64,000 nucleotides of DNA from Capitulum mitella (lineage: Eukaryota; Arthropoda; Thecostraca; Pollicipedomorpha; Pollicipedidae): assembly GCA_030062745.1 (NCBI GenBank), contig CP099842.1:27458307-27522306 (forward strand), read 5' to 3'. The position numbers and the translations under genes were made by a program. This document shows, piece by piece, positions 2,143-64,000 of the stretch (position 1 is the first letter of the stretch; the number at the start of each line of letters is the position of its first letter). Below the pieces are notes generated by a model. That model had not been told where the DNA came from. It saw only the letters and a list, made by a program, of their open reading frames with translations, and searched no databases.

Positions 2143-3365
2143 TTAACCCTATTCCCGGCAGGGGGGGGCGGAATCCGCCCCCCCTCGGGTTTTTTGCTTG
2201 CCAATTCCAGGCTTTTTAACGCAGCTTCACAAAAATTGGTCACTTTTCCTAGCTATTCCTTCTACGTGCCGTGACAAAATTTCGAAATTCTATTTTGCTC
2301 AGGGGCGGAGCCAGGCAACGTTTTTGGGAGGCACCTCAGGTCATTTTTGGCCATGTTGAGGGTAAAAGGAAAATGTCTGCCAAAAACAGAGTTTTTAAGA
2401 TAGAACTTAAAACTTTATATGAATATATAGCTAAATAGTTGGGCAATGTGCATATGTAATTTTGTTCATCTGAGGTCACTTTACAAGGTCAGGTCAAGGT
2501 CAAAAGTCAAAATTTGTTTTTTTTCGCAATAATTTCCGCGCCGTTTTTTCAAATGCCAAACCTGGAATATATATGACGTAGAAAGATGCCCTCTACTTGT
2601 GTACCAAGTTTCAGCTTGATATCAGGCCGGGTCACGGAGCTATGACCTAAAATGTCAGTGCACGTACCCTATATCGCAAAAGCCAAAAAATGAATTTTTT
2701 GGAATAGAGTGAATTTAATCGATTAAAAACGTTTACAGATAATACTGAATGCACACGACATTATTCCAGGTGACCCCAAGGTCACTGGAGGTCATTTAAG
2801 GTCAAAGGTCACAAGTTGATCTGAAGAACGTGTGACCATGACAGTTCCCCCTTTTTTATGTCCCTGGCACCGCCTATGCTAACATTATACAAACATTGTA
2901 ATGCGATTTGTACTTCTTTAGCATAACATGACTAGCAGAAGCTAAAAAAGTGTTTTGGCCTCTTTTGTTCATTCCGTTATTAGAAAACTAATCCCCCTAT
3001 TTTTGAAACCCTGTGAACGCCCATGAATTTTCTCAAAATTTCAAATTTGCATACCCATGGTAAAAGCCCTATTCATAATCTCTCGATTGATGCCAGTTTC
3101 ATCGAAATCGGTCGATAAACAACGGAGTTATAAGAAGTCAAAAAGTACCCCCCATTTTGACATTTTTGCCCCCCTGTATCCACAAATTTCAAAATTTTGA
3201 AAATTTCTTTTTATTAAAATGTAGTTCACGTGACGGCAAATCGATTGCCGTTTGTTGTGATGAAATCGGATAAGTAGTTCTCGAAATCTCAGGGGGGGGG
3301 CCGAATCCGCCCCCCCCCCTGCCGGGAATCGGCCATACCGTCTAGCCCTCCGGGAATAGGGTTAA
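2143..3365. mobile_element. TTAA-flanked miniature element, family A copy 1
   Basis: The element is bounded by TTAA on both sides (2143-2146 and 3362-3365), with inverted ends CCCTATTCCCGG and CCGGGAATAGGG. Just inside each end is a G-run/C-run palindrome (around 2161-2186 and 3292-3320) that could fold into a hairpin. It is about 1.2 kb long with no long open frame, so it is non-autonomous. An inverted copy is found at 14681-15886, and split copies lie at about 41630-44781 and 53930-57165. TTAA duplications with ends starting CCCT are characteristic of the piggyBac superfamily; that assignment is inferred from the ends only. The interior is rich in AGGTCA half-sites. It also has a CAGGGGCGGAGCCAGG motif at 2295 and an inverted counterpart near 2861-2878, possibly the ends of an older internal insertion. 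Confidence 0.82.
2799..2811 (+). promoter_or_regulatory. Perfect DR1 nuclear-receptor-type site in family A
   Basis: AGGTCA, one A, then AGGTCA. This is the consensus direct repeat with 1-bp spacing bound by RXR/USP heterodimers and HNF4-type receptors. Several single AGGTCA half-sites lie nearby (2471-2510 and 2770-2795). Whether any protein binds here is unknown; the motif match itself is exact. Confidence 0.35.
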
Positions 3366-13981: not shown

Positions 13982-14680
13982 TTAACCCGGCCCCGACTGG
14001 GGGAAGCGGTTGACCGCCCTCCCCCCTGAGGTTTTTCCAAGACTGCGAGAGAATCAACAAGCGCAATGCCACCAACCTTTGTGTATCTTTTGCACGATCA
14101 TTTTTACATCCTGCGTTAAGATTTTGACCTCAGGTCAAGTCCGGTGTCTGACCTGGGCCAGATCAAGTGGACCTGTGTTCAAAAAAAGTTTAGTGCCCTA
14201 TAACTTTTTCGGAAAACGTGATATCACAGTAAAACTTTTGCAGATTAGAGATCTTGAAAGATGCAACAAATATGCTATCCCAGGTATTTCGGGATTTTCC
14301 GGGTCATTGACCTAACGTCAAGCCCATTTCCAAAGCATGTCGTCTTTTTTTGTAATTCGGTGGAATTTTTTTTACAACATTTTTAGTGTAGGGTGATGCA
14401 GACATCCATTTGCCGTCAGTGGACAAAGTATCAATGACCTCAAACCATTGGCCTGAGGTCAGGTCACGAATAATTGCGTTAAGCACAAATGCGCCGCCGT
14501 CAAAATCGTCGACGAATTACTCAGAACGAATAGGAAATGGCAGAATTGGTCGGCATAGTTGGGAGTAATACAAGGAAGTTCAGAAAGTTTCAGAAATGGC
14601 GTATTTTGGGTATAAACATACTTTCGCGAATAAGGCCCCGCCCGTTGTGTAGATTGATAACTAATGACTTCTTCCAAAAT

Positions 14681-15886
14681 TTAACCCTTTTCCCGAAGGG
14701 CTAGACGATATGGTCGATTCCCGGCAGGGGGGGGGGGGCGGATTCAGCCCCCCCTGGGATCTCGAGAACTATACATCCGATGTCATCGCAACAAATGGCA
14801 ATCGATTTGCCATGACGTAAGCTACACTTTTATAAAAAGAAATTTTCCGAATTTTGAAAGCGGTGGATACAGGAGGGGAGGCAAAAATATCGAAATTAGG
14901 AGTATTTTTGGACTTCTTATAATTTCGTTGTTTACGAACTGTTTTCGATGAAACTGGCATGAATCGAGAGACTATGGATGGGATTTTTACCATTGATACA
15001 CACATCCGAAATTTTGAAGAAATTCATAGGCGTCCACAGGCTTTCAGAAATAGGAAGATTAATTTTTTAACAACTGAATGAATAAAAAGGTCAAAAACAC
15101 TTTTTTGGCTTCTGCTAGTCATCTTAGGCTGAATAAGTACAAATCGCATTACATTGTTTGTATAATGCTAGCAAAGGCGGTGCCAGGGACATGAAAAAAG
15201 GGGAACTGCCATGGTCACACGTTCTTCAAATCGACTTGTGACTTTTAACCTTAAATGACCTGCAGTGACCTTGGAGTCACTTGAAATGATCTCATGTGCA
15301 TGTAATATTATCTGTAAACGTTTCCAATCATTTGAATTTACTCTATTTCAAAAATTCCATTTTACGGCTGTTGTGATATAGGGTACGCGCACTGACGTTT
15401 TAGGTCATATCTCCGTGACCCGACCTGATATCAAGCTGAAACTAGATACACAAGTAGAGGGCACCATTCTACGTCATATAGATTCCGGGTTTGACATTTG
15501 AAAAAATAGCTCCGAAATCACTGCTATAAAACCAAATCTTAACTTTTGACCTTAACCCGACCTTGTAAAGTAACCTCAGATAAACAAAGTTGCACCTGCA
15601 CGTTGCCCAACTATTTTGCTATTCACCCGTATAACGTTTTAAGTTCTATCTTTAAAACGCTAGTTCTGGCAATCGTTTTCCTTTTACCCTGAACAGGGCC
15701 AAAAATGTCCTGAGGTTTGTCCCAAAAACGTTGCCTGGCCCCGCCCCTATGCAAAAAAGAATTTTGAAATTTTGTCACAGCACATAGAAAGAATAGCTAG
15801 GAAAAGTCACCAAGTTTCGTGAAGCTGCTTCAAAAAGCCTGGAATTGACAAGCAAAAAACCCGAGGGGGGCCGGGTATAGGGTTAA
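14681..15886 (-). mobile_element. Family A TTAA element, copy 2, nested in family B
   Basis: Flanked by TTAA (14681-14684 and 15883-15886). It is the reverse complement of 2143-3365 over nearly its full length, with the same internal landmarks: G-run end, AGGTCA-type motifs, and the GCCTGGCCCCGCCCC motif near 15730. The uninterrupted site is preserved at TTAA 63290-63293 in the other family B copy, which proves insertion. The right-hand G/C palindrome is shorter than in copy 1. Confidence 0.88.
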
Positions 15887-16679
15887 ACATGAGAAAACAA
15901 AACAAAAAACGTTACAATTGAGGAATATCACATGGAAAGGCCTATGCCGGGAAAATAAAAAAAAAATGCTTCCCGTCATTTTGTGCCGCGTTCGGTTATG
16001 GCACCCGCCGGCAGTCGGCGCAGAAATCGCCGTGTCTTTAACTAAACGGTTCGACGCACATCGTAAACAAATAAGAGAAATTAGGCGTCTATCACCATTC
16101 GCGGACTTTTACCTGTTTATTGGTGCCTTTACCTAGACCTTATTAATCACAGCCCTTGAGATCCAGGCCGCTTCTCGGTTTCATGCAGTCGGTTGTGAAA
16201 GAAGGTGTATAGGACGTAAATGGCTTACATATTACCCAAAACTAAAAATGGGACCAGTTTCGAGCTCCACTTGTCACAGGCGCCGATCCGGAGGGGAGCG
16301 ATGGGGGCGATCGCCCCCCCCCCCCAGGCCTGAGAAGGGGTCCCTCTCGGGCTGGCCCGGAAGGGGCCCCTCTCAAACTCAAAAGAACCCCGAAGGGGCC
16401 CTGTATGAGCTTTACGGGGTCTCTGTAGAAACGTGACGGGTTTTGATTCAGTCAGGGAGGCCTCTTGGAGGGTTAGATGACCCCTGAGACGCATAAAAGG
16501 GTCCAGGGGCGTAGCCAGGGGGCCCTAGGGATCACAAGATAGGACAAACCAGGACCATCCGAAATGTTTGAAGACAGCTCATCTCCACTGAGGTTAGAGG
16601 AAACTACTCTTGTGAAAACCAAAGCCACGCAAAAATGTTTTAAGAACGGTAGACAACAGAAGACAAAAGATGAAATATA

Positions 16680-17170
16680 TAGATCCAAGCATATAGAGGG
16701 GCCATATAGGCTTGTAGGGGGGCCCATACCGGCTTGTAGGGGCCCTTGCCGGCCTGAAGGGCCCCTGCAAGCCTGTTGGGACCCCTGCTGGCCTGAAGGG
16801 GTCCCTTGCTGGCCTGCAAGGGGTACCCTAGGAAGCTGCCGGCCTGCAAGGGCCCCCGCATGCCTGCAGAAGGACCCTTTTGGGCCCCTTCCGGCCTGCA
16901 AGGACCTCCTGCCGGTCTGTACGGATCCCTGCCAGCCTGTGGGACTCCTGCCAGCCACGGAAGGGCCCCGGTTGGCCTACAGAGGGAACCCTTGCTGTCC
17001 TGTGGGACCTTGCCGGCCTATAGGCCACCTGCCGGTTGATAGGGGACCTCTGTATGTCTGTAGATGGCTCCCTGTCGACATGCAGGAGCCCCTACTGGCT
17101 TGTAGGGACTCCCTGTCGGTCTTTAGGGCCCCTTCCGGCCTGTGAGGCCTCTGCCAGCCTTCGGAGCGCC
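16680..17170. repeat. GGCCTGYAGGGGCCC degenerate tandem array
   Basis: About 15-20 imperfect units of roughly 25-30 bp, each with a GCCGGCCTG(T/C)A core followed by a GGG-CCC palindromic block. Part of the GC-rich insertion inside family B. Confidence 0.8.
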
Positions 17171-18250
17171 CCTGCTGTCCAGGGGTCTACGTAAAGTAGG
17201 GAGAGGGCCCACCGCTGGGCGAGGACCCGAATTTTTGTGGCTGCCTGCACCCCTGGAACGACTCATAAAGCTACCAAAGGGTCCCTGAGACCACAACAAG
17301 GCCCCAACACGGCAGATCGCCCCTGAGTCCGCCAGAAAGGTCACAGGGCTCCTGAAACGGCCAAAATGAGGACTGACTCTATGCAGGCCAAGGGCTGCAT
17401 AGAGGCCCCTGGAATGCCATAGGGGCCCCGAATGTGTTTCACTAACCTGTATGAAAGCTGAAGGTTCCTGATGCAGGCAGAGGGCCTCCGGGAGGGTTAA
17501 TGAGACCCTGAGACGGCAAGATGGCCCCTAAGGTAGGTAGAAAGGCCCTGGAACTCTCGAAGGGTCCCTGGGACCGCAAGAGGGACCCCGACGCGATAAA
17601 AGGCTGATGAGACCGCTTCAAGTGTCATAGAGGCCCCTAAGACGGAAGAAATTTAAAAGAGTGCCTAGCACAGCGTAAGGAGACCCTGGCCAGCCAGAGG
17701 AGCCTCCTGAACAGGGATTCATCAATGACCTTTTCAACTCCGAGAAGGGCCAAATGGGCTACATTGGCCTTTCTGAAAATCTGAAAGGTCCTTGATGGAG
17801 TCAGGAGGACTCGGGAAGGTCAGGTGTGTCCTGAGACGGCAAGGCGGGCCCCTAAACGGCAGATGGCCCCTGAGACCGCCAAAAAGGTGGGAGGGCCCCT
17901 GCGAGGCAAAGGCGATAAGAGGACCTCTTCGACCGTACGAGCGCTTTGGACGGACAGAGGGCCCCCGAATGTGTATGGCGGGCTTCTGGAATAGAAAAGG
18001 TCCGTCTGAGACTGCTAGTGAGGCAACGGCTGCCAGACATACCCTATGTAACAGAGGAAGACCAGCGATACTTCCATGGAGAGTACCAGAGACGTTCAGA
18101 AGGCCCATGGCACTGCACTGGAGTCCTGAAATCGTCCAAAGATCTTTTGTAAAGTTACAGTTCTGCCAGAGGGCTCCTGAGACGGAAAATATGTTCCCCA
18201 GAGACGACGAGAGGGGCTCCTAGGACAACAAGGGGTCCACTGAGACTGCC
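17170..18250. repeat. CCTGAGACGGCAAGAGGGCCCC degenerate array
   Basis: A second repeat type in the same insertion: units of about 30 bp containing (C)CTGAGAC(G/C)G(C/A)AA and GGGCCCC, more diverged than the first array. The change of unit near 17170 suggests successive amplifications. Confidence 0.65.
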
Positions 18251-18423
18251 AGAAGTCAGTGGATCCCAGACCCAGACCCCAGTCAGTCACTGCCAGAACC
18301 AGAAATTTTCCAACGGTGCGCTTATTTTTATCGTACAACTAGCTGTTCGTGAGCTAGAGGGGGCTGTCAAGCCCCCCCCAGTCGAGCGTGGTCGGCGCCG
18401 ACAACCAGTTGAGCGCGGGTTAA

Positions 18424-27449: not shown

Positions 27450-28159
27450 TTAACCCTTGCACGGTGGGGCCATTTTTACACCCTCGGCCGACGGGGGATC
27501 CTAAAACGACCCCCCCATTGGCTTTTGAACACGGAGAGATAGACCATCGCAGTAGAAAACATGATGTTGCTCTCCATGTAAGCAACTCAGCTATGTCCGA
27601 TCTTTTATATTTCGAAACTTATAAGAATAAATCAATTCCATAAATACCAACGGGTTGGTCGTTGTCTTAGCTATCGGCAACTGTGTGATTTTTTGGGTCT
27701 AGGTCAATGGGCGACCTCCCAGGACACAAAAATGTAATCATAGTTGAAATTCGCGACGTGAGACATGATAGTGTCTCCATACTTTTGTCGGGTCACAGGT
27801 CAAACGAACAGCGATAAGCGTGCCAAACTTGGTACACTGGTTTTCTTTGGGTTGGAAAGGGATCGTCTGTTTGGGGTCGCGGCCGCCTTAGTTCCCAAGG
27901 CCCACGCCAGAGGCGCTCATGTCGTTTTACGGATATCGCTCCTTTTTCTGTTTTTTCAGTTTCAGTTTATTTGCGAATCTTTCCACCGCACCACCAGATT
28001 ACTGTTTGATCCTAGTCATTACAGTACAGCACATGCGCAATAGTCATACAAGTAAAACTAGGCAGTCAGACATGTCAAGTTACAGGAAAAAGTTCGTCAG
28101 ATTTGTGTACAAGCTCTCCACGGGTTCGAGAGGCGGTGATGTCCGGCGGCAGGCGGTTC

Positions 28160-29910
28160 TAGGACGAGGCCACGCGATATGATAAGGCCCTCTGGGACAC
28201 AGACAGACGGAAAGTCGGCGGCTGTAAGGCGCCGGCCGCCAACGCCCGGGTGGCACGCCGGGACACAGCGGTACGCGGAAAGAACAGGGATCTGACCCCC
28301 AACGGAGCACGCGAGTTATTCAGGGCTCGGAAGACACCAATGCCGTCGAGCCTCGCAACTAAGTCACGTGCGGCGCGCCAGCCTAGCGCCCTCACGGTCG
28401 CCGACACCGAACCCCGCTTACGAACCCAGGAGACGATCCTGGCCCCAAAGTTCAACACCCTCTGAACTCTGTTAAGGTGGCACGACGCGGCCCCGCTCCA
28501 GACCGAAAGGCAGTAAAGGATGTGGGGGGAAAACATGTGACTGGATTAGGAGTGTCAGGACTTCGGGCGTAAGGTGATGACGCATGTTATAGAAACAGAG
28601 CAGGACGGAGTTGCACTTTTTGGTAACCTCGGACATGTGCTCCTGCCAGGACAAGCAGTTATCGATAGTGACCCCCAGCATCTTCACGGACGGAGAAGGG
28701 GTTAGTATGTGGCCGGCAACGTTAAGATGGAAGGATGTGGTCTTCGTGAGGTTATGAGCTGTGCCGACAAGGAGTAGCGTTGTTCTGGATGAAATTTCAA
28801 GGAGTTGAACGTAAAGGAGAATCTGACGGCAAGGAGTCTCTTCTTGCCGGGACTTTAGGATGGATAAGTGATCAGGATGTGCGGAGTCTAGCAGCTGGGT
28901 GTCATCGGCATAGGATACCAGACGTCCGTGAGGCAGATAGGATGGAAGGTCGTTCGTGAAGATGCTGAAGAGGATAGGACCGACAATGGACCCCTGCGGA
29001 ACACCGTGAGAGAGAGGAAGGGAGAGAGACCCACCTCTCACCACCTGCCGCCGATCAGCCAGGTAGCTCTCGAACCATCTGGGACCGATCCCATACGATT
29101 GGGACTTGGTCAGGAGGGCGTCATGGTCGACACTGTCAAAAGCCCGACTGAGGTCGATCGAGGTGACGGCGACGACGTGGCCACCGTCAATCCGACGCAC
29201 CGTCCACTCAACAGCGTCCACCAGGGCATCCTCCGTCGAGTGACATGGTCTATATGCATATTGTGGTGGAGCTAAAAGTTTATTGGTAGCGAGATAACAA
29301 GTCAACTGTGTGCAGACGATCTTTTCACATATCTTCGTTAGCGCAGGTAAGATAGATATAGGTCTAAATTGCTGGCGATGTCACGCGGGCTTGATTTGTG
29401 AAGAGGAAGAACAGAGGCCATCTTCCAGGAGGAAGGGAAAACGCGAGTTGCGATAGAGCTGTTGATCAGATGAAGTAAACGTGGCCCGAGGACGGGAAAC
29501 ATTTTTGCAGCGCATACAGCGGCACGCCGTCATGTCCTACCGCCCTCGACGATGACAAATCCCTCATAACTCTCGAGAGTTCAGGGAGAGTCGAAGGGGA
29601 CAGTAATAACAAGTGGACTTGATGTGGTCACGCATGGTGGTTTAGGTGGAAACGAGGTGTCACCGTGGTTGTTCGTTGCCAGCTCAGCAGCACTAGGGCC
29701 GGCGGACGCAAAGTGACGGTTGAAGTCATCAGCCTGCTCAGCGGACATTCCCCCGGCGGCACCCCCTCCCCCCCTTGGCGGGCTAAAAAGCGAAGCTTTT
29801 AATGTTCCTCCAAAATCTGGCACGGTCGGCAAGCATACTGTCACACAGGAAGTTGCGCTTAGCCCGAGAGAAAAGGCTCTTAACGCTGTTACGAAGGCGT
29901 CGTAACAGCG
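28160..29910 (-). pseudogene. CR1-like LINE reverse transcriptase, frameshifted
   Basis: The RT region of a CR1/Jockey-group polyprotein. It shows a pre-RT block SLFSRAKRNFLCDSMLADRA (about 29880-29815), then VMRDLSSSRAVGHDGVP with a stop afterwards (about 29570). The longest intact stretch, 28472-29305, has PPQYAYRPCHSTEDAL, SIDLSRAFDSVDHDALL, GVPQGSIVGPILF and the catalytic YADDTQLL (near 28905), followed by KMLGVTIDNCLSWQEHM. A frame change in the G-run near 28520 leads into the C-terminal part FSPHILYCLSVWSGA and FRLSVSQRALSYRVA. The YADD residues are intact, but frameshifts, stops and the missing endonuclease domain make it dead. Confidence 0.85.
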
Positions 29911-30636: not shown

Positions 30637-31313
30637 CTTGATGCGGTTGGTGTGGGGTCAGAATCGAAGCTCTGCATTGCACACAGGCCTGTACTCTCGC
30701 TAAGTACCGGCATTACACTCACTCAACTGCGCTGCTCGCGTCTAGTAACGGGCCCATAAAAAGACTCACACGCACGCTGCACGTGACCCGTTGCACCTTG
30801 CCATCATGTAGGGTACCGTTGGACAGCACTAGTGTTGGTCTATCTACCCAACAAATTTCAGCCGTCTAAGTCTCTGCTTCTGGCACTTGGGAGGTCCCCG
30901 AGTCCAAATCGAAACATGTGCCTGTGGATCGCCACGTAGACCGCACGTGAGTGCCGACAACAGAAGCGAATACCCGCAAATGCTGCCCATGTTGTCGCCG
31001 AGTCTTGAGTCAACAGCACCCGCCGTTTGGCCTGTACCCTCTGCAGAGGTCCGACTCTCGCCACGTGGCACGTGCCACATGCCGCGAATCGCTTCGAAAC
31101 CTGCACCACGACTAATCCGCCGAGTCGGCGCACCCGATGGTGCCACTTGTGTCGCGTCGCGATCGACGGCGCGTTCGTGCGCTAGAGGCTCCGAAGCCTG
31201 GACACATTTACAGACGCAATTTGAACTTTTCCAGGAGACCGCTATGTATGGAATCTCACTCGCCAAAAACGTACAAAGCACGATTTCATCTCTCTCGATT
31301 TTGAATGAGACTT
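30637..31313 (-). repeat. Repeat family R, copy 4, internally deleted
   Basis: 30640-30710 matches the tail of the other R copies (reverse complement of about 58735-58807), and 30780-31313 matches their head (57280-57790, 58830-59380 and, in the same orientation, 60790-60840 plus 61190-61790). The middle of about 0.9 kb is missing, so this is a deletion derivative. Function unknown. Confidence 0.75.
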
Positions 31314-32157: not shown

Positions 32158-32480
32158 GGCCGTTAGCATTATTTCAGAGCAGAGGCCAGCCGCTGTTTTA
32201 GAGCAGAAGCCGGCCACATTGAGCGGCCGGTAGCATTGTTTCAGAGCAGAAGCCGGCCATATTGAGCGGCAGGTAGCATTGTTTCAGAGCAGAAACCGGC
32301 CATATTGAGCAGCAGGTTGCATGACTTCAGAGCAGAAGCTGGCCATATTGAGCAACAGGTAGCACTATTCCAGAGCAGAAGCCGGCTGTATTGGGCGACC
32401 GGTAGCATTGTTTCGGAGCAGAAGCCTGCCATATGGAGCGGCCGTTGTCGTAGTTTCAGAACAGAAGCCGGCCGCCGAGG
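32158..32480. repeat. 43-bp minisatellite, about 7 copies
   Basis: Tandem units with consensus core GTTTCAGAGCAGAAGCCGGC followed by CATATTGAGCGGCCGGTAGC (43 bp in all). Copies differ by a few substitutions each, and the first and last are the most diverged. The unit is not a multiple of three, so the open frames across it are incidental. Confidence 0.9.
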
Positions 32481-41629: not shown

Positions 41630-42703
41630 GTACGCATTCTGGTATCGGAGTAGGGGGTCCGGCCTTCCCCTTGAGGTCTTGAGAGCTACCCGTCCGATTT
41701 ATCGGAAGAAAGGCTAATCGACTTATGGTGACGTAATGTACATTTTTGTAGAAGGATGTCTTAAAAGTCTTGTAATGGGTGGATGCGTAGGTGATTGAGG
41801 AAAAAGCCAGAAAAGGGAATTTTTTTAGTTCTTAAAACTCCGATGTTTATTGACCGATTTTGATGAGACTGGCATGAACCGAGATGTAATCAGTTGGAAT
41901 TTTCCCTTCCATTTGTACGCTTAGAATTTTGAGAAAATTCGTAGGCGCTCACAGGACTTGGAAAATGTAAAGGATATTTTTTTATTGAACGAACATAAAA
42001 GCTAAAAATGTTTCTTAGACTTTTGCTAGTCATTCCATACTCAACAAGCATAAATGGTATTACACTGTTGGCGTGATGCTGGCATTAGCGGAGCCGGGTG
42101 CATAAAAAGTGGGGAATGTCATAGCCACATGCCCATCAGGTCAGTTTACGACCTTTGGCCTGAAATGACCTCAGATTCCCCAAACATCACATGGAATGAC
42201 CTTGGTTCGTTTCACAGTGTTTGGAAACATTTCCAGTCATTTGAATCGACTCTGTTTCTAAGACTCCCGTTCATGACCATCATGATAGGGTACGTTCCTG
42301 GACACTTAACATCAAAGCTCCTTGACCCGACCTGATGCAACTTGGAACTTAAAGCACAAATAGATGATTTTCTGAGTTACGTTATTCAGTCTATATGTCT
42401 AACAAATTAGCGCCAAAGATATTCGCACAAAGCAAATTTTAAGTTTTTGCCTTGCCCTCACCTTGTTCAGTGACTTCAGGTCAACAAAAATGTTGTATGT
42501 TGCCCAGTTATTGGTCTTTACACTCATATAAAACTTTGTGATCTATCTCAAAAGCTCCATTTTTGGTAGCCATTTTTCTATTACTTTTAACAGCGCCAAA
42601 AAAATGGGCTGAGGTGCCTTCCAAAATATTGCCTGGCTCGTTCCTGGGCAAAACGAAATTATGAGAATTTGGCACAATACATAGATAAGATGGATAGGAA
42701 AAG

Positions 42704-44682
42704 GATGATTCCACTTCAGATCGAAAAGGAATTGACTCGGTCTCTTTCGATTTTGATGACATTTGGTACGCTCATAGTAAGGATCGAAAAATGGCCAGCT
42801 GTAAATTTTTTGCTCTGGGTCACCTCCTAGGTCAAAGTTACAGGCCATGAAAAGTCTCTGATTGTTACAGACAATACATGATTCAAATGCCCATAATTCG
42901 GTAATAGATTGTCACGGAAATGTGCGAACAGCGCCATTCGAAAGATAAATGTTCCATCTCTCACAGATAAGCCGATTTTTGTCGGTGACGTCAGAATGAC
43001 CTTCAACTTGACTATGTCAAATGAATTTTTTTTTTCTGTTTTTACCATGCTTGCCCACCGTGATCTCCGCAGACATGTGGCACAATATGCCCCCAAATAT
43101 GTACAAGAAATGTGGCAAAAACATTTCTGGTAAAAATGAAAATTTTTGAGCTTTCGTGAATTTAGTGTTGCCAAGTAGTACTTGAGAAATATGCCCTGAG
43201 GCTGTTTAACGCATATTGATTAATTCCGTGCCTTTGGTTTGTCAGATTGTCCTGCACTTTGGTGTGCACAATGTCCTTCGCGCCTGCTACACATCAGCTA
43301 AGTTTTACATTGCTTGACACAAAAGGTCAAAGATCATGACACTCCGCCACCTTTGGACCCCAGCCATCCAGATCTGACGTACCCGTTCGTCACAATTCCA
43401 TGGAAGTGAGTCTATCGAGCGTTCCAGGGCCTTTAAGCCAACTGAGAAAATCTGAGCCGAGTATCGGGGTCTTCTGAAGGTCAGTCGAGGTCAATGACGT
43501 CGTCTGGCCTTGTGTTACCTTTAAACATCATAGCTTCTTAGGGCAATTATTCCGAAGTTCAAAATAACTTTTTTCCCGTGTCGGACTTTGCACCCATCAG
43601 CGATTCCATGGGTGCTGATTTTTTGTCATGACGTCATTCCGTGAATGCTGCAATGGTAACAAATGAAATGACAGCTTGGTATAGAACTAGACAGAGGTGA
43701 TGATTGAGATACATGCCGAAAAAATCAGAAAATTGACTTTTATCGAGGATTTGAAATGGACATAAACTCTCGATGGCACACTCGATGCGTGCAAAGTGGA
43801 TTTGAAAATCGAAATCAGCGTTCCAAAAATATATAAATGATCCGAGGTCAAAATAGACTGTCCAACGCCAACCGATGTAAATGACATCGGTTGACTTTCC
43901 AAAGACCCAATGCACGACAGGATTATGTCAGTTGGCTTTAGGGCCTAAGAACACCCGACAGACTCACTTTTGTGCAAATGTAAAGAAAGGGATGTCAGAT
44001 TTGGATGACAGGAGTCGATTGGTGGCGGGGTGTCATCATTGTCATCATGACCTTTGACCTTTCTGTTCAGGAAATTTGAAACTAGGCTGACATGCAGCAG
44101 GCACGCAGAACATTGTGCTCACGAAGTTGTAGAATAGTTTGACAAATGAAATGTGCGAAAGAAACCAATTTTTGTGAAATAGCCTCAGGGCATCTTTTTC
44201 AAACACCACTTGGCAACACTAAATTAAAGATATTGAAAAGGCTTGAATTTCCTCAGAAGTGTTTTTTGGCACGTTTATTGTAGATATTTCAGGGCATCTT
44301 GCGCTACAATGTCACGAAGATCACGGTGGGCAAACATGGTTAAAATCAAAAATGTTCCATGTGACCTAGCCAGGTCAAATGTTATCCCCAGGCCACCGGA
44401 AAAAATGAACTTATTCATGAAACCTAGAACATTAATCTTCTGAATCATGCTGATCGCACATTTCTGTGACAATCTAGCACCGAGTTATGGGCATTTGAAT
44501 TATGCAATGTCTGCAAACGTCGGTGACCTTTCATGACCTGTGGCTTTGACCTCAGAGGCCGCCCAGAGCTAAAAATTTATGAAAGGTCATTTTTCGATAC
44601 TTTCTATGAACGTATCAAATTTCATCAAAATCGTAAGGAGTCGGGTCAATTCTTGCGCGATTCGACATGGAATGATCCAACA
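42704..44682. mobile_element. 2 kb fold-back (long inverted repeat) insertion
   Basis: The left arm 42703-43460 is the diverged reverse complement of the right arm 43920-44678. Paired positions sum to about 87380 at every point tested: 42703 with 44678, 42829 with 44552, 43405 with 43970. That means the arms are collinear with few net indels. The spacer is about 460 bp. The whole block sits inside family A copy 3. No coding capacity is seen. It could be a fold-back element or two copies of another repeat joined head to head. Confidence 0.8.
44048..44060 (-). promoter_or_regulatory. Second perfect DR1 nuclear-receptor-type site
   Basis: The reverse complement reads AGGTCAAAGGTCA, identical to the site at 2799-2811 but in a different element (the fold-back arm). 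Binding is untested. Confidence 0.33.
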
Positions 44683-44781
44683 GTAACCACGTTTCGTGGA
44701 GCTTCTTTGAAATGCCTGGAAGTGGCGAGCAAAAAAAAAACAGAGGGGACTTCTGAAGTCCCCAAACGGGAACAGGGTTAA

Positions 44782-53830: not shown

Positions 53831-54499
53831 TATATTGATATTTGGCGTGACCTGTGACGTAGCTGATAGCCTTGAAGCCCGGAATGTGGCGCACATGAGG
53901 CAGCATTATGGAGGAAAATCGACCGCAGTTTTAACTCCATTCCTTGCTCCTGTCCAATTCCGTGCGAAGGGCAGATTCCGCACCCCACCCCCTTCGATCT
54001 CGAAAACTACAGATCCGCTCTCCGAGTGGAAAAGGGTGTTCAATAGCTTGTAGTAAAGCCTGCATTTCTAAAAAAAATAGAAAATTCTGAGATGGGGGTA
54101 GTGGGTCAAAATGAGCGTATAAATAGAGGTTTATTTATATGAACTGTATGACCACATTTTGGAGCAGATTTTGTTCTTCATGCAGTTCTGCCGACATTTG
54201 ATAGAAGTATCACATACTTTAGGAACAGGTCAATTTTCAAAATTCATAGAAGTATCCAGGGCACATGAAAAGTGGTACACGTTTTGGGGATATGTTAATA
54301 CATCTTTCAACATGTTTTGAGTCTGGCGAAATTATTCGTGTTCAACATTTCCATATGTGTCTAATTCCATATCATGTACATATCACAAATTTCCATGGAT
54401 GAATCCAGTTACCAGAAAAAGCGGGGTAACTTTGTACATGATGAACTGTTGACAACTGCCTATCATGCTCAAACATATTGTAAATATTCTTTTGTATTA

Positions 54500-56254: not shown

Positions 56255-57267
56255 AGTTTGCATTTTGACGTCATCATCACATAACATTTCGGCAGAATAG
56301 AATCATAGGCGTAACTAGACTATATGAACGGGGTAATGCTTGGAAAATGTTTCGTTTTTGTCTATATTCTGAATTTGGCGACATTATGTGTGTCAAGCAA
56401 GTATTTCATGTATGTCACATGCCGTATTAAATCCACATTGCAAGTGGTCATAGGAGGATCCAGGTATCGGAAAAAGAGGGGCCACTAAAGGCATGATGAT
56501 AGCTGTGTTTTTCTCCGGAAATCGAGCCATAATTTTTCAGGAAAAAGGGCGAATAAAGTACTCCTTCTACTTCACCCTGGAGCTGCCTCTGATTCTTATT
56601 TTCGTTGAAATGTATGGCATTTGATCGTTATATATGTGGAACTAACAAAACCAATCACACACGTCCAAATCTCTGTTGTACCCACTGAGCACGTCATTGG
56701 ACGAACTATGCACCCGTAAACTGATGCCTGGAGACGACCATGACAGTAAACATAGGTGAACTATATGACCAAATTAGGGCAAAGATGCATATGTCATACG
56801 TCAGCTTTGTTTCAGTCATACAATGGGTTATCATTTCTTAGGAGTTAGGGTAGGAAATGTTTCGATCATTTGAACTGTCCGTGACATCATCCAAGACATC
56901 AAAATGGTAAGTGACCACGTCGATGTGCGCTACCTCCAGAAAGTGCGATATTTTTCAAATACGCCTCCGAAGAAAGTGTCCTGGAACCGCCTCTGGAAAA
57001 GCTAAATTTGTAAGATTCTGTCACAACATCGGAAAATAACTATTTACGAAAAGTCACCAAGCTTCGTGAAGCAGCTCCTAAAAGTCCGGAAATGGCGAGC
57101 GAACAACTGGAGAGAGGAACAGAATCTGCCCCCTCCCCCCAAACGCGGAATAGGCTTGGTCAGCTCAATCGGTCCATTGGTTGCTGAGTTCTAAAGGGGA
57201 GGAGGTCAAATGTCCCTTCCAAGATATCGCAAGATAAGGAAATCTCCAGCACTGGTCAGATTAACCC

Positions 57268-58807
57268 AAAATCGATGGAGCTGAAAACGCGCTTTGCACG
57301 ATTTTAGCGAGTGAGATTTCATACACGGCGGTCGCCCGTAAAAGTTCGGATCGAGGTATTCGTGTATGTGCGTGTGTGTGTTCAAGCTTCGGAGTCTCTA
57401 GTGTCCGAACGCGCCGGCCGACCGCGACACAAATGGCACCCTCAGGTGTGCCGACTCGGCATACAAATTATGGTGTAATTTTGAAGTGATATTCGTGCCA
57501 CTTGGCACATGCTTTGCCAAGTGGCACGAGCCGGACATCTGCGAAATTCACTCAATCATGGATACAGGCCAAACGGTGGTGCTTTTGACTCCAGACTTCG
57601 TGACAACATGAGCCTCACTTGCGGATGCGTGCTTTCGTGGTCTGCACACACGCGCGAGCCACGTGGCGGCCCATATGCACGTATTCTTATCTTTATTCGG
57701 GGACCTCCGAGTGCGGAAACAATGACCTAGGCGGCGGAAATTTTGTGAGTAGATAGACCAACACCAGGGTTATCCAACGGTGTCCCATATGATGGGCAGG
57801 GTGCAAAGGGTAACGCACAGCGCGTGCGCCTCTTTTACACCCCTCTGTTTCTTATTGGCCAATTGCCGCCACGCAAATGGCGCAGTTTCCTGCAGTGATG
57901 GCTCTGAATGGCGGACGGGCAGCTGGACAATCAATTGAAATGGATTCAGGTCGAAACGGGGGTGCAGCTTGCACGTGAAGTGCGAGATGCCCAAGATTTA
58001 CACCTCTACTTCATTGCCGCAAAACCATCACCGTTGGTATGTTGAAAATTGCCGGGCATGAGCAAGTGATAAATGGCAGTCGATATGTGTGACTGTTTTG
58101 CATGCCAATAGCTTCAGCCTGGTGTGAGCGGAACGCACGTGCCGAGGAGTTACCGTTTGTCATCCAGGCCTTTGGTTTAGGAATCGATGATGCCGGAGGC
58201 GTCAAATTTTGTGGTGGGCTGGCAGTTACATACGCAGTCAAGGACTAGCAAGATTTAGGACAACAGTGCAAGATGCCCCCCTCCCCCTCCCCAACTCACA
58301 ACTTGTCGGACCTGGGATCTTACGTTTGCGGGAAGGTGCACGATTTACTTCTACCTGCAGGACGCAAAACCACTACCGCTGTGAAGCTAAAAATTGGTCG
58401 GCTGGAGCATGTGATAAGTAGCGGTCGATATGTGGGACTGTTTTGTATGTCAACAGCTTCAGCCGGGTGCGCGCGGTACGCACATGCTCAGGTGTACCCC
58501 TCTGCCATTTAGGCCTTTGGTTTGGCAACCGTTGATGTTGGACGTGGCAGACTTTATGGTGCGCTTCAAAGTCACTAACACCATTCAGAACAAGCAAGAT
58601 GTAGAACATTATTGGCAAGATGCCACCCATGCGAGCGTGCAACTTGCTGGGTTCGGATCCTCCGTTTGCGGGAAGGTGCACGATTCTGTGTACGTGCGTG
58701 ACGAGGGCGGCAAGTGTCGTTCCATATGGGTAGCACTGGTACCAAACGAGTGCAGAGATCTGCGCACGATACATAACTTCGATTTCGACCCCAAACCAAC
58801 CGTGTAA
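57268..58807 (+). repeat. Repeat family R, copy 1
   Basis: The head module 57280-57790 and tail module 57790-58807 are both shared with copies 2 and 3. Unique to this copy is an internal tandem duplication: 58018-58360 and 58361-58690 are about 0.34 kb repeats sharing GCAAAACCA-C-ACCG, GCAGTCGATATGTG-GACTG, AGGCCTTTGGTTT and TTTGCGGGAAGGTGCACGAT. A 125-codon frame (58430-58807) is conserved in phase with pieces of copies 2 and 3, but no known protein is recognised. Confidence 0.72.
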
Positions 58808-58829
58808 CGCGTTGGTTTGCCTCTTGTTC

Positions 58830-60015
58830 AAAATCAAAAGAGGCAGAAGCGTGCTTTGCATGATTATAGCGAATTTCAGATTTGATGAATGGCGGTCGTT
58901 CGGATAAGTTCAGATCTATGTGTGAGTCTGTGTGCGTGTATTTTCCTGTATGTGTTCAAATTTTGGAGCCTCTAGCGCCCGCACGCGCCAGCTGATCGCG
59001 ACACAAGTGGTACCATCGGGTGCGCCGATTCGACGGACACATCATGGTGCAGGTTTCGAAGCGATTGGAGTCGTGTGGCACATGCCATTTGGCGCGAGCC
59101 GGACCTCTGCAGAATTCAGTTAATCACGGGTATAGGTCAAACGGTGAATGCTGTTGACTCAAAACTTGATGGCAAAATTGGTTCTACTTGCAGGTGCGTG
59201 CTTTTGTGTTCAGCACTCACGTGCGATCCAGGTGACGATCCACAGGCACGTGTCTCGATTTGGACTCGGGGGGACCGCCGAGTGCCTGGAAACAGTGAAC
59301 TGTGCGGCTGAAATCTAGTGGGTAGATAGACCACCACGAGGGCTATCCAACGGTATACCACATGATGGGCATGGTGCAATGGGTCACATGCAACGCGCAT
59401 GTTCCTCTTTGACGCCCTGTGTTTCTTGGCGAAGTTTCGGACAGAAATGGCACAATTTGGTGCGCTGGTGGCTTGGAAAGGAGGACGGTCAGCTGGACGA
59501 TCTATGTTGATGGATTCACACCGAAACGGGGGTGCAGCCTGCACGTCACATGCGAGGTGCCCAACATTAACACCACTCGTTCATTGCCGCAAAAGAACAG
59601 CTACTGGTATGCTGGAAATTGGCGGGCAAGAGCACGTGATACGTACCATTTTGTACATGTGGCTGTTTGGCATGTCAGTAGGTTAGGCATGGTGTGTGTG
59701 GGACGCACGTGCTGGGGCGCACCCATTTTTTATTCATGCCTTGTCTTTTGGAACCGCTGATGCTGGAGGCGCGAGGTTTTTCAGGTGGGCTTCAAAGTCA
59801 CAGACGCCATCCAGAACAAGGACGATTTAGGGCACCAGTGGCAAGATTCCACCCACATGTGAGCGCGCACCTTGTTAGACTTGGATCCACCCATTGCAGG
59901 GCGTTTGTGATGCCTACATTAGTATCTTTATTTAGATGAACGCATTAAACAGATGCGAAGGTCTGTGTGCAATACATAGCTTCGATACATAGCCCAAATC
60001 AACCGCGTAAACTGT
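58830..60015 (+). repeat. Repeat family R, copy 2
   Basis: Lies head to tail behind copy 1. It shares the head (GAGGCAGAAGCGTGCTTTGC at 58839), the central stretch and the tail (ACATAGCTTCGATACATAGC). It is open in two frames over 59399-59760. The frame giving KRGCSLHVTCEVPNI is also seen in copies 1 and 3. Confidence 0.72.
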
Positions 60016-60162
60016 TTGTTTGCGTCGAGGACAAATCCAAGGAATACGACCGGGAAAACAAACTTTCATTTGTCTTAACTGTCTTGTATAGCCCATTTGG
60101 GCATAAAGTAGGGGCAAACCAGCGCGTAACACGTCGCGTAACACGTAACACGCGAAACAAAC
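60016..60162. other. Junction between R copies 2 and 3
   Basis: A short unique spacer with three CGCGTAACACGT-like repeats near 60120-60150. Confidence 0.5.
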
Positions 60163-60840
60163 CAACATACGGTTGGTTTAGGGTCTAAATCGAAGCTTTA
60201 TATCGCACACAGACCTGTGCACCCGCTTAGTACCAGTATTACCCCTACGAAACGACACCTGCCGTCCTCGTCATACAGGTAGAAAAAAATCGTGGACGTT
60301 CCCGCAAACGGTGGATCCCAAGTCCAGCAAGTCGAACGCTTGCATGTGTGGCATCTTGTCAATAATGTCCTAAATCTTGCTTGCCCTGGATGGCGTTTGC
60401 GACTTTGCAGCGCATCACGAAATTTCGCGCCTCCAGGATCAGTGGTTCCCGGCACCAGTGGAACGAACCCAGGGCCTGAATGGCAAGCGGGTACAATTCA
60501 GCACGTGCGTCACGCACACACCAGGCTGAAGCTATTGGTGTGCAAAATAGCCACATGTTTCGTCAGCCATGTATCGCGTACTGCTGCCCAGCAACGTTCA
60601 GCATACCAGCGGTTGTGGTTTTGCGGCAAAGAAGTACATGTGTTGAATGTTAGGCACCTCGCACTCCACGTAGAAGCTGCACCCCCGTTTCGGTCTGAAT
60701 CATCAAAATTGATCGCCCAGCTGCCCGTCCGCCTTTCTAAGCAAACATCGCACTAAATTGCGCCATATGAACCCCGGAAATTAGCCCATCAGAAACAGAA
60801 TGGTGTAAAAGAGGCGCGCGCGACCCGTTGCACCCTGCAT

Positions 60841-61166
60841 CAGGGACGTGGCCAGGGGGGCCATGGGGGCCATGGCCCCCCTTGAGCCAAGCGGTCTACA
60901 CTAAATATATGGCGATTTCATATACATATTCAACAACAACAACAATTCAGACATATTCATACACATTCAAATACATGAATACGTAATAGTGATCATATAT
61001 ATGTTGCAAAAACAAACATTATATGTGTTTTCCTGTATATAAAGTATGAGACATATAGCCTAAAATTTTTACTGTTTCTTGAAAACTTTGTCATATGCCA
61101 TATGTCATATGACAAAATTTGACATTTGCCCCCCCCCCCCCGAGGAGAATCCTGGCTACGTGCCTG
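60841..61166. mobile_element. hAT-type MITE with 8-bp target duplication
   Basis: The left end CAGGGACGTGGCCAGG and right end (reverse complement) CAGGCACGTAGCCAGG pair at 14 of 16 positions. The element is flanked by exact 8-bp direct repeats CCCTGCAT (60833-60840 and 61167-61174). The CAGGG start with an 8-bp duplication is the hAT superfamily signature. The interior is AT-rich, with G-run and C-run blocks just inside the ends (GGGGGCCATGGGGGCCATGG and a 14-base C run), and is non-coding. The duplication is perfect, so the insertion looks recent. Confidence 0.92.
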
Positions 61167-61586
61167 CCCTGCATGTCAGGTGGAGTGCCGGTGGATGGCT
61201 TTAAGTGCTGGTCTATCTACCTACTGAATTTCAGCCGGCTAGGTTACTGTCGGCGGCACTCAGATGTCCCTGAATCCAGATCGGCACACGAGCCGGAGGA
61301 TCACCAAGTGAGTGCCGCAAGTGAGTGAGTGCCGAATACAAAAGCATGCACCCGCAAGTAGGGCCCATGCTGTCACCAAGTCTTGAGTCAACAGCGTCCG
61401 CCGTTTGACCTATATCCGTGATCAGCTGAATTCTGCAAAGGGCCAGCTCGCGCCATGTGACACTTGCCACACGCCACGAATCACTTCGAAAGCTGCAACA
61501 CAATGTGTCTGCCAAGTCGGCGCACCCAATGGTGCCACTTGTGTCGCGATCGGCTGGTGCGTCTGGCCGCTGGAGGCTCCGAAGCT

Positions 61587-61603
61587 TAAACACACACACA
61601 CAA

Positions 61604-61635
<32 letters not shown>

Positions 61636-62772: not shown

Positions 62773-64000
62773 GACCATCCCGTGCCCGACTACCAGTCGG
62801 CGCCAGTCACACCCGACTGGGAAGAGGTTGGCCGTCCCCTCTAACTCATGAACGGTTCGTCGCGCGATAAAAATAAGCACCTCATTCGAAAGCTGGCGAC
62901 AAATAAAGCTCAAAAATTGTCTCATTTTCAGTTTTGGATGATATGTAAGCCTTTTACGCCCTATATATGTTCTCTCACAGCGAACCGCATGAAACCGAGA
63001 AGCGGCCTGGATTTCAAAAACTGATTAACAAAGTCTGTGTAAATGCATCAAAGGATGGATAAAAGTCTGCAGATGCCGAAACGCGTCTATTTTTTATTTG
63101 CTTAATATACTTGCCGAAACGTTGAGTTAAACACACGGCGATTTTTGAGCCGACTGCCGGTGAACGCCGTAGCCGAATGCGGCACAAAATTAACGGGAAA
63201 TAATTTTAACGTTTCTTTATTTTCACGACATTAGCCTTTCTGTGTGGATATTTCTTGATTCTAGTGGTTTTCGTGATGATTTCCCGAGCTTAAATTATGG
63301 ACAGCTTCATTGGTTATCAATCTACACAATCGGCGGAGGTTTTATTCGCGAAGACCTGTTTATTTCCAAAATATGCAATTTTCGCAAATTTTTTGAATTT
63401 CTTGGTATTACTCGCAACTGTGCGAACCAGGTTCGTCATTTTCTACCCCTTCTCAGTAATTTATCACCGATTTTGACGACGGTGCATTTTGGCTCGCAAC
63501 AGTTATTCGTAACTTAACCTCAGGTCATTGGTTTGAAGTCATTGATACTTTGTCCATTGGCGGGAACTGGGCGTCTGCATCACCCCACACTAAAAATGTT
63601 ATCAAAGAATTCAGACGTTTTCCGAAAAAAACGAAGACAAGTCTTGTAAATGGGCTTGACCTTAGATCAGTGACCCGGAAAATGCCGAAAAATCTGAGAT
63701 GACAGATTTGGCTCACCTATTTGGATCTGTAACCCCTAAAAGTTTTGTTGTAATATCTGGTTTCCCAAAAAAGTTACAGGGCGCTAAACGTTTTTGGACA
63801 TAGGTCCATTTCTAAGTCATTTCTAAGTCCACTTCACCTAAGTCAGACACCTGACTTCACCTGAGGACAAAATTGAGACACGAGGTGTAAAAATAATCAA
63901 ACAAAAAGTGCACAAAGTTTTCGTGCGCGGCGCTGCTGTTCGTTTGTTCTCTCGCAATCTTGGAAAAATCTTAGGGGGCGGGTGTAATAATAATCCGGAA
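62773..64000 (+). mobile_element. TTAA-type family B element, copy 2, nearly complete
   Basis: Matches the reverse complement of 13982-18423 with that copy's two insertions removed. Shared landmarks include TGGCGCCGACTGGTAGTCGG (reverse strand, near 62805), CCAGGCCGCTTCTCGGTTTC (reverse strand, near 63010), and CATTGATACTTTGTCCA. The left TTAA has mutated. The right end lies a few tens of bases beyond the window. Its TTAA at 63290-63293 is the empty counterpart of the site that received family A in copy 1. Confidence 0.82.

Follow-up and report, generated by a model that had tools for sequence, protein, structure and literature searches.

In piggyBac, the same 19-bp palindrome is found near both ends, but at a different distance from each tip (PMC11707139), and excision of the element leaves the TTAA target intact and without a footprint (PMC3878927). 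In corals, both filled and empty alleles are known for CMITE elements, and CMITE-IN denotes a CMITE located at a TTAA within another element (PMC2872659). Here we describe a nested locus in a 64,000-nucleotide stretch of the Capitulum mitella genome (assembly GCA_030062745.1, contig CP099842.1, forward-strand positions 27,458,307 to 27,522,306; hereafter the window), in which A1, a non-coding element of approximately 1.2 kb from a family we refer to as A, interrupts B1 (13982-18423), a copy of a second family that we refer to as B. Our reading of this locus, to which we assign a probability of roughly 0.88, is that A1 is a non-autonomous cut-and-paste element of the piggyBac type that entered an old B copy at the TTAA of position 694, this TTAA being duplicated in the process.

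The left part of B1 occupies 13982-14684 on the plus strand, bears the tip TTAACCCGGCCCCGACTGG and extends up to and including a first copy of TTAA. A1, which is 1.2 kb in length with tips TTAACCCTTTTCCCG and CGGGTATAGGGTTAA, follows on the same strand as a non-coding piggyBac-type element spanning 14681-15886 when its two flanking TTAA copies (14681-14684 and 15883-15886) are counted. Directly after the second of these comes the middle part of B1 (15883-16281, plus strand), and the right end of B1, with the tip CCAGTTGAGCGCGGGTTAA, is found at 18307-18423 on the plus strand. A second B copy in the same window, B2 (62776-64000, minus strand, cut off by the window end), lacks both A and a further 2-kb insert present in B1, and has a single TTAA (63290-63293) at the position equivalent to that of A1. 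The first-pass annotation had stated that TTAA is doubled around the insert and single in B2, and that similarity to B resumes beyond A1. Both statements are borne out: TTAA lies at 14681 and 15883 in B1 compared to 63290 in B2, and the joined B1 flanks (13982-14684 plus 15887-16280, with A and one TTAA removed) can be aligned with the reverse complement of 62776-64000, the 1044 aligned columns showing 78.4% identity. The left and right flanks align locally to B2 with scores of 495 and 281, respectively, whereas the maxima over 100 dinucleotide shuffles per side were 32 and 27.

What this pairwise comparison does not do is place the break exactly on TTAA, as had also been proposed, because several cuts tie in the alignment; the proposal stands once the A tips of other copies are used, and it is these tips, rather than an alignment of B1 and B2 at 78% identity, that fix the edge of A1 at the level of single bases. 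For the same reason, the earlier view that the locus proves transposition into TTAA without outside data is worded too strongly. A single, paralogous empty copy that is 78% identical leaves the breakpoint loose, and transposition into TTAA is instead supported by many copies. Moreover, B2 is a different copy of B and not the pre-insertion state of the B1 locus, and one empty copy is unable to separate insertion from precise loss because piggyBac excision restores TTAA footprint-free (PMC3878927). The end of B2 at 62776 is without TTAA and its opposite end lies outside the window, so that the TTAA target of B itself rests on B1 and on genomic copies.

Other copies of A define its ends. The window holds a second complete, TTAA-flanked copy, A2 (2143-3365, minus strand), which is 85.5% identical to A1 over 1200 columns and whose ends carry a perfect 17-base inverted repeat, TTTAACCCTATTCCCGG; the same tips recur in copies across the genome. 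Our search of the genome, comprising 477 Mb in 16 contigs, gave 11597 initial candidates for A and 7138 for B, and 40 of each were scored, with B1 included in the B set. The exact 16-base string consisting of TTAA and the A tip has 13225 matches (6640 and 6585) compared to none for a reversed-pattern control. A 20-base A left tip has 5766 exact matches, of which 5276 (91.5%) directly follow TTAA, a tetranucleotide that starts at 0.41% of window positions. Among the 30 complete A copies that were read, A1 included, 27 are flanked by TTAA on both sides. The terminal inverted repeat CCCTATTCCCGG stands at both ends of A and falls within the approximately 12-19 bp characteristic of the piggyBac superfamily. 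A1 contains no open reading frame (ORF) of at least 120 amino acids, and the first 100 of the 13225 listed A tips include 37 facing pairs with spans of 1172-1246 bp (median 1217) and no pair with a span of 1.3-6 kb. Family A is thus non-coding, uniform in length and high in copy number, as are miniature inverted-repeat transposable elements (MITEs). At 1.2 kb, it is long for a MITE.

Two further observations within the window concern A. A third copy, A3 (41652-44781), is split by a 1975-bp element at 42704-44678 that has inverted-repeat ends with 76% identity over 741 columns, and the two parts of the A3 match share about 5 bases where it is broken. In addition, a fourth A-related copy survives as two remnants, one from its left part (53969-54111) and one from its right part (56963-57156), separated by approximately 2.8 kb.

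For B, we examined 10 full copies (L062-L071), leaving out a rearranged copy (L072) and B1 itself (L061). In this small sample, all 10 copies have TTAA at the right end but only five have it at the left, the other five being one substitution away from it. The terminal inverted repeat of B is imperfect (CCCGTCCCCGAC versus CCCGCGCACGAC). The site that A1 occupies in B1, B position 694, is uninterrupted in all 10 copies. Insertion into B is also seen elsewhere: at C2:21.43 Mb (L033), a piggyBac element with a transposase gene, which has one stop in the matched stretch, has inserted into a B copy at position 856, the site of the other conserved TTAA of B, and the A site of that same copy is empty, while at L016 an A copy is inserted in B at a place other than position 694. 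At another locus (L009), A adjoins a short B of approximately 360 bp whose middle is gone, with TTAATTAA in between.

The arrangement seen in B1 recurs across the genome. A whole-genome search for the left context of B followed by TTAA and an A tip returned 9 exact matches and 151 at up to two mismatches, with none for the control. We fetched 20 junctions (L073-L092), drawn from the exact matches (all 9) and the one-mismatch places (11 of 12) and leaving out the 130 with two mismatches, and B was found upstream in 14 of the 20 (8 of 9 exact and 6 of 11 one-mismatch). The six junctions without clear B upstream were dropped, among them L079, an exact junction with only 17 matching B bases, as was L092, in which the right junction was not seen. 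In the remaining 13 of the 14, B resumes at the same TTAA past the other end of A, which lies approximately 1.2 kb away and was identified by both A ends. TTAA is present on both sides in 11 of these 13 filled loci and L086 and L090 have one substitution each; the target-site duplication at L091 is TTAA. A is oriented forward at five loci (L074, L075, L082, L084 and L090) and reversed at eight (L073, L076, L077, L078, L080, L081, L086 and L091), and since it sits at the B site in both orientations, at least two separate insertion events are needed.

These data also polarize the event. An alternative in which B originally carried A, and in which B2 and the other B copies lost it by precise excision, gains what credit it has from the empty copy taken alone, which is unpolarized given that piggyBac excision keeps TTAA (PMC3878927). 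It is nevertheless extremely improbable, as the site is uninterrupted in B2 as well as in the 10 full copies, A occurs there in both orientations, and exact empty sites number 2468 compared to 9 exact filled ones. We therefore reject precise loss, on the grounds of the empty B copies and the mixed orientations of A, in favor of insertion of A1 into B1.

A1 lies 11.7% (Kimura two-parameter distance, K2P, of 0.129) from the majority sequence of its family and B1 lies 20.5% (K2P 0.245) from its own, values that fit with A1 having landed in a B1 that was already old. Other A copies differ by 2.6-6.5% and the 10 fetched B copies by 3.1-8.4%, all fetched copies being top scorers and thus skewed towards complete, young copies. 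Because the fetched B copies are so little diverged, B was still moving after A1 landed. The suggestion of the first-pass annotation that A was active after B had spread therefore applies to the B1 copy, but not to family B as a whole.

We further considered whether B and A might have travelled as a composite, such that the insertion predates the arrival of B1 at its present locus or that some filled loci share one insertion. An older allele of the B1 locus was not seen, and when the flanks of 14 filled copies (B1 included) were compared with those of 10 empty ones, the nearest flank was an empty copy in four cases, a tie in one and another filled copy in nine, mostly by no more than 0.02, so that some filled loci may share descent. 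The pairs that might share an insertion, each with a common orientation, are L077/L086 at 92.4% and L073/L081, which are mutual nearest neighbors, at 75.3%; empty pairs reach 93.5%. Against a composite stand the presence of both A orientations, the finding that the nearest filled flank often belongs to a copy with A in the opposite orientation, the lower divergence of A1 than of B1 from their respective families, and the B1 flanks themselves, which are marginally nearer to an empty copy (0.747) than to a filled one (0.734). Joint movement is in our estimation improbable, and we infer that most filled loci at the B site represent separate A insertion events.

Repeated insertion at one site might alternatively mean that A favors this TTAA (position 694) as an insertion hot spot, given that 13 followed-up loci besides B1 have A at exactly this position and that the junction pattern occurs at 151 places within two mismatches, most of them unread. 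Set against this, the 9 exact junctions (8 with clear upstream B) compare with an expectation of 8.3, calculated from 2468 exact empty sites, 13225 tips and a genome total of TTAA sites estimated at 1.98 million, although it weakens our reading that this expectation rests on the TTAA density of the window. A hot spot is about as improbable as joint movement, and position 694 appears to be used by A about as often as any other TTAA, that is, by chance.

With respect to superfamily, the genome contains 118 matches to the piggyBac transposase domain, some of which are second pieces of one gene. We read 30 of these with 1.5 kb of flanking sequence and grouped them, loci without both tips resolved included, into type I (TTAACCCATTAACGCCCAG; 14 loci), type II (TTAACCC(T/A)TTAGTGCCCA; 15 loci, including L052 and L056, which are 88.7-92.5% identical to L039) and one singleton. 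The exact A/B tip string occurs at one of the 30 loci (L046), within an A copy pointing away from the gene. A transposase of the Kolobok type could in principle have moved A and B, as TTAA duplication is common to Kolobok and piggyBac and thus does not discriminate between them (PMC6004289). However, Kolobok tips begin with RR, being AG in the ten full-length frog elements tabulated in the same source, whereas those of A and B begin with CCC, and piggyBac transposase matches are abundant in this genome, Kolobok genes not having been searched for. We consider a Kolobok source very unlikely and reject it on the tip bases, without a search for a Kolobok transposase. The insertion of A1 and the duplication of its TTAA target are shown by the data above, as is the generality of this duplication over thousands of copies. 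Under the piggyBac reading, a piggyBac-type transposase, none of which had tips like those of A or B among the 30 loci we read, probably moved both A and B, and the palindromes near the tips would be its binding sites.

The tips adjoining TTAA begin with CCC in both families, reading CCCT in A and CCCG in B, and the terminal motif of A agrees with the CC[C/T]T described in PMC2872659. In both families, a palindrome made of a G-run and a C-run lies near each tip, at a distance of approximately 20 nt on one side and approximately 46 nt on the opposite side. In 28 of 30 A copies the best left-end palindrome starts at position 40-52, and in 28 of 30 the best right-end palindrome starts at 17-28; in B, the left-end one starts at 18-24 in 6 of 10 copies (elsewhere in 4) and the right-end one at 39-54 in all 10. 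In A1, the right-end palindrome is lost. Most A and B ends outscore those of types I and II, the two other piggyBac families of this genome, on the palindrome measure, five type I and II elements examined having scores of 4-6. Furthermore, A at its right end and B at its left end have similar sequence over approximately 130-160 bp (nhmmer E-values of 1.8e-8 and 3.2e-10 with 1.2-kb targets), a similarity to which GC runs contribute part of the score. A control using the B model against reversed A sequence gave no match, and the best blastn piece is 52 bp (E-value 3.5e-4). Tips, palindromes and related end sequence together suggest that the two families are probably sisters, both made up of non-autonomous elements of the piggyBac type. 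Given the resemblance of their end sequences, the families A and B of the first-pass annotation are probably not unrelated. More tentatively, and at somewhat less than even odds, A and B, each present in thousands of copies, may be two sister branches within a single large group of piggyBac-type elements that are long (1.2 kb), lack coding capacity and are defined by a GC palindrome approximately 20 nt and 46 nt from the tips. The transposase of this group would be missing from the genome or of another type than those we read. Separately, TTAACCCTTGCACGGTGGGG followed by a G-run/C-run pair occurs at window position 27450 and may mark the tip of a third, similarly arranged family.

Several observations limit our account of A1 or weigh against it. 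As noted above, the alignment with B2 leaves the cut ambiguous, with cuts at 14681-14688 tied at a score of 203.5 and a neighboring cut scoring 205.0. Across the genome, 490 of the 5766 A left tips lack a preceding TTAA, and three of the 30 complete A copies deviate, having CTAA/CTAA (L026), TTAA/TCAA (L030) and AGGA/TTAA (L016) as flanks. The last of these is the A copy inserted elsewhere in B, which accordingly retains TTAA on one side only. The flanks of L026 still fit a duplicated target, as would be expected if the four bases come from the target; CTAA duplications are also known for piggyBac elements (PMC10813416). The B tip CCCG fails the CC[C/T]T motif (PMC2872659) but fits the looser CCC (PMC10813416), and the weakest A and B palindromes score in the same range (4-6) as the unrelated ends of types I and II. 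Finally, no gene-bearing element with A or B tips is present among the 30 of 118 transposase loci that were read.

By itself, the nesting of A in B is ordinary in type and is seen repeatedly in this genome; it provides a clean natural record of insertion sites. With thousands of A tips and thousands of near-identical B targets, nested insertion becomes a countable test, here with both orientations represented and the expected number matched. A single assembly can thus be used to measure how piggyBac-type elements choose their targets, in what order they were active and how old they are. If A and B are indeed sister branches, their copies would constitute a natural integration-site assay that includes repeated use of one site.

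B1 also contains a second, separate insert of 2025 bp (16282-18306, no strand assigned), which is GC-rich and made up of degenerate short tandem repeats. Judged against the majority sequence of the 10 B copies, it sits between B positions 1099 (16281) and 1100 (18307) with zero B bases lost, and we saw no clear target duplication around it. The possibility that this block is a component of B was rejected, as B1 breaks off at position 1099 and resumes at 1100 and the 10 B copies are without it. Since the block is missing from B2 and from all 10 full B copies, the interval 13982-18423 consists of B (approximately 1.2 kb), A1 and the 2025-bp block. The original description of this interval as A inserted in B is therefore correct in that A1 lies inside B1, but it leaves out the second insert.

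Elsewhere in the window, modules of several hundred bases are repeated at 72-81% identity and in both orientations at 57267-61626 and 30759-31303, and five ORFs scanned in these regions have no Pfam match. An ORF at 28472-29305 on the minus strand encodes a reverse transcriptase domain (RVT_1, E-value 8e-22), the sole Pfam match among 20 window ORFs scanned, and a tandem array with a 43-bp unit (6.5 copies, 82% matches) lies at 32194-32473. The window contains no tRNA detected by ARAGORN and no Rfam match at the gathering score.

Among known systems, the Kolobok and T2-MITE elements described in PMC6004289 share with A and B the duplication of TTAA and the existence of non-autonomous families, but their tips begin with RR (AG) where those of A and B begin with CCC. 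AmiPB1 of Acropora millepora has a tip, CCCTTTCCCGTCC, that in its printed form, the only part compared, resembles the CCCTATTCCCGG of A; unlike A, it is autonomous and 3668 bp in length (PMC2872659). The autonomous element piggyBac resembles A and B in its TTAA target and in the unequal distances of its palindromes (PMC11707139, PMC3878927), and CCC tips are shared with the superfamily (PMC10813416), whereas A and B are without a long ORF, have palindromes that are GC runs of varying length and have no tip-matched transposase identified. The coral CMITE families, as described in PMC2872659, are likewise non-coding, duplicate TTAA, possess CCC-type tips and occur beside piggyBac transposons. 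Compared to these elements of approximately 100 bp, A and B are 1.2 kb long, reach much higher copy counts and carry GC palindromes by both tips, and B has the tip CCCG.

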